Made by a program: the position numbers and the translations under genes
The notes under the pieces: generated by a model
What the model saw: the letters and a program-made list of their open reading frames with translations, nothing else
Told to the model about the DNA's origin: nothing
Database searches by the model: none
Shown here: positions 16,779 to 37,405 of the stretch, piece after piece
Layout of the letters: every line of letters begins with the position of its first letter
Position numbering within the stretch: position 1 is the stretch's first letter
Source: Candidatus Nitrosocosmicus franklandus
GTDB lineage: Archaea; Thermoproteota; Nitrososphaeria; Nitrososphaerales; Nitrososphaeraceae
Length of the DNA: 64,000 nt
Reading direction: 5' to 3'
Assembly: GCF_900696045.1 (NCBI RefSeq)
Contig: NZ_LR216287.1
Coordinates: 1,965,854 to 2,029,853, forward strand

Positions 16779-17543
16779 TCACCCGTTGTTATACCAGTTT
16801 ATTTTATCATTAAGATTAACTATGTCACCAATGATGACTATTGCAGGAGGAGTAACCTTTGCTTGATGAGCTAACAGAACAATATTGTCAAGATTTCCTC
16901 TAATTATCTTCTGATTCTTAAGGGTCCCATTCTGAACTATGGCGACAGGCTTGTTATGACTTTTCAGTCCCTTTTTTATTTTTTCAATAATGATTTCTAA
17001 TTTCTCTGTTCCCATATATATTACCACGCTATCCACAGCATCAAATAATTTCTCCCATTTCACTTCCGGTGACTTTTTCTCGGGATCCTCATGACCAGTA
17101 ACAAAAGCCACGGAAGAACCATATCTTCTATGTGTAAGTGGTATTCCTGAATAAATGGCCGCACCTATACCTGAGGTAATTCCTGGAATGATCTCAAATG
17201 GTATCTTGTTTTCCGTCAAAATCTCAGCCTCCTCGCCTCCTCTCCCAAAAATAAAGGGATCTCCTCCTTTTAATCTCAGAACCGTTTTACCCATTTTAGC
17301 ATATTTTATCATCAATTCATTTGTATAGTTTTGATGAGTTGTTGGATCTCCTATGTTCCTTCCAACATATACTTTTTCTGTCAACTCAGGAAACAACTCA
17401 ATGATTTCTTTCCCTATTAATCGGTCGTAGAGGATTACCTCTGCCTGTTTGATCAATTCCTGTGCTCTTACAGTTAATAACTTTGGATCACCGGGTCCAG
17501 CACCACATATATATACTATCCCGGTGTTATCTTTTCTTTTCAT
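16779..17543 (-). CDS. cobA: Uroporphyrinogen-III C-methyltransferase (SUMT)
   Basis: A 254-residue SUMT. The N-terminal GAGPGDPKLLTVRA and YDRLIGKE, then LRLKGGDPFIFGRGGEE and GITSGIGAAIYSGIPLTHRR, are the family signatures for S-adenosylmethionine binding. It methylates uroporphyrinogen III at C2 and C7 to give precorrin-2, the branch point to siroheme, cobalamin and the alternative haem route. The ATG overlaps the hemC stop in an ATGA arrangement (17540-17543), so translation is coupled. The oxidase partner Met8 is encoded separately at 24.5-25.2 kb. Confidence 0.93.
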   Translation of the reverse strand: MKRKDNTGIVYICGAGPGDPKLLTVRAQELIKQAEVILYDRLIGKEIIELFPELTEKVYVGRNIGDPTTHQNYTNELMIKYAKMGKTVLRLKGGDPFIFGRGGEEAEILTENKIPFEIIPGITSGIGAAIYSGIPLTHRRYGSSVAFVTGHEDPEKKSPEVKWEKLFDAVDSVVIYMGTEKLEIIIEKIKKGLKSHNKPVAIVQNGTLKNQKIIRGNLDNIVLLAHQAKVTPPAIVIIGDIVNLNDKINWYNNG

Positions 17544-18511
17544 TCTATTAATTCATTTAGAATATCTATGTTCGTATTATTATTATTGTCCCATTCCTTT
17601 GTTATCTCTATTGCACCTTTGGAAAGTAATTCTTGTGCAACACTTTTACCTAACTCTTGTGGATAGTCTATTCCATCTTGTCTACATGCTTTTATTGATT
17701 TTTTACCATCTAAAGAATAAACAACAGCATACAATGATATGCTCTTTTGCCTAATTCTTGCACTAGCAACTGCCCCCAATGGCACGGTACACCCTGCTCC
17801 AATAGCTTCAGTTAGAGATCTTTCTGCTTGAATTTCTTTAAGCGATTTGTTGTCTTCAATTTTTTTTAACAAGGATAATAGATCCTTGTCTTCTTTTCGA
17901 CATACTATTGCCAACGCACCTTGTCCAGGCGCAGGTGTAAAGCTCCGAATGTTTAGTCTATGAGTAATCAGGTTAGCCAAACCTAACCTTTCTATTCCAG
18001 CTTCGGCTAACACTATCCCAGAGTATTTATTCTCCTTTGATTTATTTAATCTAGTTTCTACATTACCCCTAATTGACTTTATTTTTAGATGAGGATACTT
18101 TGCTTTAATTTGAAAAGCTCTTCTGATACTACTTGTACCTATTATGGAACCTGGAGAAAGTTGGTCGAGTTTTTTTACATTGTCACTATTTATGAATACA
18201 TCATTAGGCTTTTCTCTCCTAGGAATACATGCAATAACCAGTTTGTCCGATATTCCTGCATGAAGGTCCTTAAGACTGTGAACTGCAAAATCAGCTTGAT
18301 ATCTTAATAATTTTTCATTTACTTCCTTTTCAAAAACGCCCATCCTGTCCATGGCAAAAAATGGTCTGGTGTCCCTATCACCTTGAGTTATGGTTCTATC
18401 AATTCTTACTTTTAGATCTGGCTTAATATTTTTTAGTAACGCAATAACTAATTCTGTTTGTCTGGTAGCTAGTTTGCTAGCTCTTGTGGCAACTACTATT
18501 TCTTTAACTCT
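17540..18511 (-). CDS. hemC: Porphobilinogen deaminase; start codon unresolved
   Basis: The family body is clear: LRYQADFAVHSLKDLH, SSIRRAFQIKAKYPH, and EAIGAGCTVPLGA with the dipyrromethane-binding cysteine. It polymerises four porphobilinogens to hydroxymethylbilane. An ATG at 18352 would lose about 50 residues, yet the same open frame upstream encodes the conserved N-terminus (IVVATRASKLATRQTELV and TQGDRD). That frame runs back only to 18511, directly after two in-frame TGA codons within the end of hemL, and contains no ATG, GTG or TTG before the conserved part. Candidates are ATA (18499) or GTT (18508), or reinitiation at the hemL stop. Coordinates give the maximal open frame. Confidence 0.85.
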   Translation of the reverse strand, partial: RVKEIVVATRASKLATRQTELVIALLKNIKPDLKVRIDRTITQGDRDTRPFFAMDRMGVFEKEVNEKLLRYQADFAVHSLKDLHAGISDKLVIACIPRREKPNDVFINSDNVKKLDQLSPGSIIGTSSIRRAFQIKAKYPHLKIKSIRGNVETRLNKSKENKYSGIVLAEAGIERLGLANLITHRLNIRSFTPAPGQGALAIVCRKEDKDLLSLLKKIEDNKSLKEIQAERSLTEAIGAGCTVPLGAVASARIRQKSISLYAVVYSLDGKKSIKACRQDGIDYPQELGKSVAQELLSKGAIEITKEWDNNNNTNIDILNELIE

Positions 18512-36500: not shown

Positions 36501-36866
36501 GTGAATGTAGAAAATTTCCCTTTTGAAAATGCATCTTATATTAACTTGGAAACCTACCGAAAGAATAAACAAGGTGTTAGGACTCCAGTCTGGTTTGTGA
36601 GTAAAAATGATAATATCTATGTAGTAACTCGAGAGAATACAGGTAAAGTAAAACGGATCCGAAATAATAATGAGGTCAAAATTGCAAAATGTGATTTTAG
36701 AGGGAAAGTTAAGGGACCGTGGATAACAGCAAGGGCACATATAATTGAGCAGGAAAGTAAGGAAATTCTGGAGTTGAGGAATAAGAAATATGGATTCAAA
36801 GCCAAACTTGCTAATTTATTTACCCTTACCAAAGGAAATTATGTCGTTATTGCTATACAAATTTAG
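36501..36866 (+). CDS. PPOX-class flavin/F420-dependent oxidoreductase
   Basis: A 121-residue split beta-barrel protein from a GTG start. YINLETYRKNKQGVRTPVWFV and NIYVVTRENTGKVKRIRNN match the PPOX/pyridoxamine phosphate oxidase-like family that uses F420 or FMN; VKIAKCDFRGKVKGPWITARA follows the same fold. Substrate unknown. The F420 link is supported by the NpdG-like gene at 3.3 kb. Start chosen by family alignment of the first strand. Confidence 0.8.
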   Translation: MNVENFPFENASYINLETYRKNKQGVRTPVWFVSKNDNIYVVTRENTGKVKRIRNNNEVKIAKCDFRGKVKGPWITARAHIIEQESKEILELRNKKYGFKAKLANLFTLTKGNYVVIAIQI

Positions 36867-37051
36867 ATATATTTCTCACCTGCTCTTTCCAAAACATGTA
36901 ATCCTGTCCTCACAGATATGTTTATTACATAGTATCGTCCCATTTAGCTCAAATTCTAGTTGTGATTGCTCAGTTTTCTTCAAAGAGCAGCAACAAGGGT
37001 ATAATATGTCTTAAGAACAACAAAAATTAAATATCATTATTAAGTAGCTAA

Positions 37052-37405
37052 TTCATATCCGAATTTAAAAAAGAAAAATCAACAAGTTCAAAGAAAAATA
37101 AGATCGAATCCTTTTCCTTAGAAGATGATAACTCATTTGGTGATTTATTAAAACGGCTTGATGAAGATGAATTAAAGATAACGGTACAACTTTATGTGAT
37201 TAAGAGAGGAAAAAGAGTAACACAAATCAAAGGATTTACAGACCAAAATCAAATGGAGTCTATTGCTCACGAGTTAAAAAAAACTATTGGCACAGGTGGA
37301 ACCGCTAAGAATGGCATAATTGTACTGCAAGGTGACCATCGATCAAAAGTCACTGAATTTCTATTATCAAAGGGATTTTCCGAAGAAGCCATAGAAGTAA
37401 TTTAG
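37052..37405 (+). CDS. Translation initiation factor aIF1 (SUI1); no canonical start
   Basis: The C-terminal 69 codons from a GTG at 37196 form most of a SUI1 domain (KRGKRVTQIKGF, TGGTAKNGIIVLQGDHRSKVTEFL). The same frame continues upstream with protein-like sequence SFGDLLKRLDEDELKITVQLYV that supplies the first beta-strand and the usual acidic N-terminus. It stays open back to a TAA at 37049-37051 and contains no ATG, GTG or TTG. Candidate initiators are ATA at 37055 or ATC at 37103. aIF1 promotes scanning or selection of the correct start codon on the small ribosomal subunit. Coordinates show the maximal open frame. Confidence 0.85.
   Translation, partial: FISEFKKEKSTSSKKNKIESFSLEDDNSFGDLLKRLDEDELKITVQLYVIKRGKRVTQIKGFTDQNQMESIAHELKKTIGTGGTAKNGIIVLQGDHRSKVTEFLLSKGFSEEAIEVI

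Follow-up and report, generated by a model that had tools for sequence, protein, structure and literature searches.

An aIF1-type paralogue in the window

The window, a 64,000-nucleotide stretch at C1:1965854-2029853 in the genome of Candidatus Nitrosocosmicus franklandus, carries on its forward strand a reading frame for a SUI1-domain protein of 116 amino acids (37055-37405; SUI1 domain at approximately residues 41-108), which was delimited by frame analysis, Pfam matching, comparison between genomes and a structural model. This frame is preceded by a TAA stop codon (37049-37051) and a TTC codon (37052), and is open throughout from an ATA codon (37055-37057) to the TAG at 37403-37405. The first in-frame ATG, GTG or TTG after the ATA is a GTG at 37196-37198 (codon 48) and the next NTG is an ATG at codon 67, so the initial annotation had correctly described a frame devoid of any canonical start between the TAA and this GTG.

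The predicted protein matched the SUI1 family PF01253 with 57.8 bits (cut-off 25.5), identifying it as a genuine SUI1 protein, and its best solved relatives were the archaeal aIF1/SUI1 chains 5zcy and 4mo0. When scored against the NCBIfam model NF002096, it reached 72.3 bits, below the cut-off of 98, and the canonical aIF1 of the same genome reached 123.3 bits, above it. There are two SUI1 genes in the host genome; the higher-scoring copy, at C1:2667010, begins with ATG, as did canonical aIF1 in every Nitrosocosmicus copy read, and encodes a zinc knuckle with the CxxCGLP signature. This knuckle (CX2CGLPX3CxC) is absent from the window protein, although an N-terminal zinc knuckle is found in 64% of archaeal aIF1 proteins and so is not strictly defining (PMC6237735). 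In the Nitrososphaeraceae, the window gene thus represents a second paralogue of the aIF1 type, one that lacks the zinc knuckle, and we name it aIF1-B; its earlier label of aIF1 holds as regards the type of protein encoded, but not as regards the copy, which is not the canonical one. aIF1-B shares with canonical archaeal aIF1 the SUI1 fold and the GGT-K-G-LQGDHR core, and differs from it in having no knuckle, an acidic/basic disordered tail, a score below the NCBIfam cut-off and a non-AUG start. An extra aIF1-like gene beside an essential one is also described for Haloferax volcanii, where the second gene, HVO_B0284, is dispensable with almost no phenotype (PMC3828320); we liken the two by description and do not assume orthology. 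One Nitrosocosmicus genome (locus L052) carried a second canonical zinc-knuckle aIF1 beside aIF1-B, which is possibly contamination of the bin.

An AlphaFold2 model of aIF1-B had a mean pLDDT of 78.6, with residues 3-24 below 50, and placed a helix at residues 27-37 followed by strand beta-1 at residues 42-48. Codon 48, the GTG, falls at the end of beta-1. The expectation that a start at this GTG would cost the protein its first strand was therefore confirmed in the model, in which the helix at 27-37 would be lost as well.

Conservation of the ATA codon and the onset of coding constraint

aIF1-B was present in 14 of 15 Nitrosocosmicus genomes, the one without it being an assembly of 720 contigs, and the homologous codon was ATA in all 14, three of which are single-contig assemblies. 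An in-frame ATG in close relatives, which the initial annotation had named as the finding that would overturn a non-AUG start, was not found. Between the in-frame stop and the ATA there was no NTG in 11 of the 14 genomes, and the single NTG seen in each of the other three (L009, L012 and L014) lay at unrelated positions. Two groups of genomes were distinguished by the length of the tail, which was 16 codons shorter in one than in the other, and the ATA was kept in both, with the codon following it varying among TCA, TCC, CCA and TTC across the two tail groups. In nine rows that could be aligned without gaps, codon 1 was the sole invariant near-cognate codon; unlike it, the isoleucine at codon 17 appeared as ATA, ATC or ATT. 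The clade bearing the ATA was firm in a phylogenetic tree (100/99) and canonical aIF1 was firmly grouped apart, with deeper forks being weak in an alignment of few columns.

Substitutions were then counted by codon position in pairwise comparisons among eight sequences (pairs that are not independent of one another). In the 60 nucleotides upstream of the ATA, counts at the first, second and third positions were 250, 296 and 269, with 49% of sites differing, and codons here varied freely and included stops. For codons 2-47 the counts were 151, 103 and 442 (18% of sites differing) and after codon 47 they were 188, 51 and 724 (17% differing), such that from codon 2 onward amino acids were mostly kept and changes were synonymous. 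As judged from these substitution patterns, the ATA marks the exact point from which the sequence is constrained as coding.

Genome comparison thus strongly supports the non-AUG start at 37055 that had been proposed, and we consider it highly probable that translation of aIF1-B initiates at AUA. The simpler explanations that had been offered beside it, a sequence error in the A-run or use of the GTG at 37196, are effectively excluded. An error or a pseudogene in the host genome is scarcely conceivable given that the same ATA recurs in 14 genomes, and that purifying selection acts along the whole frame. A start further into the gene, at some other codon that is in frame or near-cognate, would give a shorter protein and is improbable. 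In its favour, the GTG is the first canonical codon of the window gene, and in the short-tail clade an ATG at codon 15 would spare the SUI1 domain. The GTG is nevertheless not conserved, its position being occupied by GTA in 8 of the 10 long-tail Nitrosocosmicus genomes; five genomes of the genus have no NTG at all within the first 60 codons; a start at the GTG would delete the structural elements described above; and selection at the protein level acts on codons from the ATA onward. Still less probable is entry from an upstream ATG in another frame, with the SUI1 frame reached by frameshifting, intron removal or RNA editing. Such an ATG does exist at 37006, but TCT TAA comes directly after it, it is not conserved, and the sequence 5' of the promoter-like element described below diverges between genomes with no coding signal seen.

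Promoter footprint, related loci and other genes without an NTG start

Upstream of the ATA, on the same strand, lies a BRE/TATA-like promoter footprint, AACAAAAATTAAATATC (37019-37035), conserved in the ten long-tail genomes. In these the block AACAAAAAWTAAATATC, or near variants of it, occupied positions of about -36 to -20 between flanks that diverge, and in the short-tail group an element of TATATA type stood equally far from the ATA. A TATA-like stretch had been assigned to 37024-37035; such a stretch is present, and is better placed at approximately 37026-37034, 21-29 nucleotides before the ATA. Among 50 control genes with aligned starts, a four-genome footprint analysis gave a peak of upstream conservation between -36 and -25 relative to the start codon, the pattern to be anticipated where many mRNAs have little or no leader, and the spacing of the aIF1-B footprint fits that of the footprint conserved in these other genes. 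In a composition profile of the regions upstream of first ATGs, no TATA peak was visible, the profile being too blurred. A Shine-Dalgarno-like word occurred in three of 19 rows (L005 and the near-identical L006 and L033) and none was conserved. As the TATA/BRE footprint ends some 20 nucleotides upstream and is accompanied by no conserved Shine-Dalgarno sequence, the aIF1-B transcript is probably leaderless, its 5' end coinciding, or very nearly so, with the predicted AUA start.

In genera of the family outside Nitrosocosmicus, aIF1-B appeared to open with GTG (27 loci, mostly GTG-TCN) or TTG (5 loci), these starts being assigned by a shared motif, with several loci also having an in-frame ATG just upstream. 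At a few loci (for example L023, L057, L060, L073 and L075) the start was ambiguous, and use of ATG is at times possible. Most of the GTG and TTG loci had a CTTT/CTTC- or TATA-type element starting near -31 or -29. Judged by this comparison of loci, non-AUG and probably leaderless initiation is a conserved habit of aIF1-B, of which the AUA in Nitrosocosmicus is the extreme. Two further loci may be recorded here. In another family of the order (L032), an aIF1 without a zinc knuckle is the only SUI1 match of its genome, and its frame opens TAG GTG TCT, like that of the Nitrososphaeraceae paralogue. In one genus of the Nitrososphaeraceae (L071), a copy of aIF1-B has in-frame stops and a shortened end, and is apparently a decaying gene.

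The frequency of such starts was gauged in a background sample, not genome-wide, that comprised two regions of 64 and 100 kb, each compared between four genomes. An aligned NTG was common to 106 of 126 conserved genes, and when the 20 remaining genes were judged by eye, only aIF1-B and hemC were without a usable NTG. A 140-kb region upstream of the window held few syntenic genes and added little to this comparison. The upstream neighbour of aIF1-B, which served as a local control (36501-36866, forward strand; a weak PNPOx_N match below the Pfam cut-off), began with ATG or GTG at the aligned position in every genome in which it was read.

The second gene, hemC, encodes porphobilinogen deaminase on the minus strand of the window (17543-18511) and had no NTG start at any of the 14 loci of the genus (L130-L143). 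These mostly showed a Shine-Dalgarno-like GGTGA word, then six nucleotides, then GTT, ATT or TTT, followed by Lys-Glu/Gln-Ile; hemC started with ATG in those genera of the family that were read beside Nitrosocosmicus. The gene overlaps the end of hemL, and termination-reinitiation or frameshifting is possible for hemC. No initiator tRNA with the anticodon UAU was called among 30 tRNA loci scanned, eight of them without a resolved anticodon, with four further matches left out.

A possible self-feedback of aIF1-B through its start codon

Archaeal aIF1 helps to discriminate against start codons other than AUG (PMC6237735), and from this together with the family-conserved non-AUG start we infer that aIF1-B may be autoregulated. 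Under the proposed mechanism, the AUA would be the first codon of a leaderless or nearly leaderless mRNA and would be read as the start by initiator Met-tRNA with a mismatch at the third position. As an AUA start is weak, aIF1-B output would depend on the stringency of start-codon selection: high stringency would disfavour the AUA, so that the amount of aIF1-B would track initiation stringency. Low aIF1-type activity would relax selection and yield more aIF1-B, and high activity would tighten selection and yield less. The amount of aIF1-B would in turn feed back onto initiation stringency, provided that aIF1-B has the activity that we ascribe to it.

Taken jointly, AUA initiation and self-feedback of aIF1-B strike us as evenly balanced between right and wrong. 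The fuller proposal, that aIF1-B represses its own start on a leaderless AUA mRNA and so forms a genus-wide stringency-sensing circuit, with hemC (GUU/AUU/UUU) and others as possible co-targets, is plausible but tentative, a little short of an even chance. Several points speak against the AUA-feedback reading: a canonical aIF1 is also present and may be the true stringency factor; the second aIF1 of Haloferax volcanii is dispensable (PMC3828320); some loci of the GTG type have an in-frame ATG a short way upstream; and the lack of an NTG start in hemC indicates that weak starts are found beyond initiation factors. The canonical aIF1 and hemC also favour a rival account, itself a substantial possibility that falls short of even, in which the AUA start only keeps aIF1-B constantly low or canonical aIF1 sets its level, with no self-feedback; the evidence for the AUA start is identical under this account, and hemC, the second such gene, is not a translation factor. 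This account leaves unexplained, however, why an aIF1 homologue should be among the few genes of this kind and why the non-AUG start of aIF1-B is family-wide.

Precedents for the self-feedback of aIF1-B come from the two other domains. Bacterial IF3 regulates its own gene, infC, through a start that is AUU in Escherichia coli and AUC in Streptomyces (PMC5472188), and infC resembles aIF1-B in being the gene of a fidelity factor with a conserved non-NTG start. That this start is the base of negative feedback is demonstrated for infC (PMC5472188) and only suggested for aIF1-B; moreover the proteins are unrelated, the bacterial mRNA is leadered and the codons differ (AUU/AUC as against AUA). Eukaryotic eIF1, as cited in PMC6237735, autoregulates through an AUG in poor context, and so offers a homologous SUI1 protein with the same proposed logic. 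The weakness in eIF1 lies in the context of a scanned AUG, whereas in aIF1-B it would lie in the codon itself, and aIF1-B exists as a paralogue alongside a canonical aIF1. In Streptomyces, sigR has a GTC start that is repressed by IF3 (PMC5472188); like aIF1-B it has a conserved non-NTG start, there used for translational control, but the target is a sigma factor and not a fidelity factor.

In the open-access literature, where absence is weak evidence, we found nothing on Nitrosocosmicus start codons, no archaeal gene with an AUA start and no autoregulation of an archaeal aIF1. Stringency control through the weak start of a factor's own gene is known in bacteria (IF3, PMC5472188) and eukaryotes (eIF1, as cited in PMC6237735). 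If the proposal is true, bacteria, eukaryotes and Archaea would all use this logic, and the archaeal message, which is probably leaderless, would carry its main signal in the start codon itself. For annotation, gene callers that accept only ATG, GTG and TTG can shorten or miss a translation-factor gene throughout a genus. For Nitrosocosmicus, a genus of ammonia-oxidising soil archaea, the non-AUG start suggests that aIF1-B may control its own production, as IF3 does.
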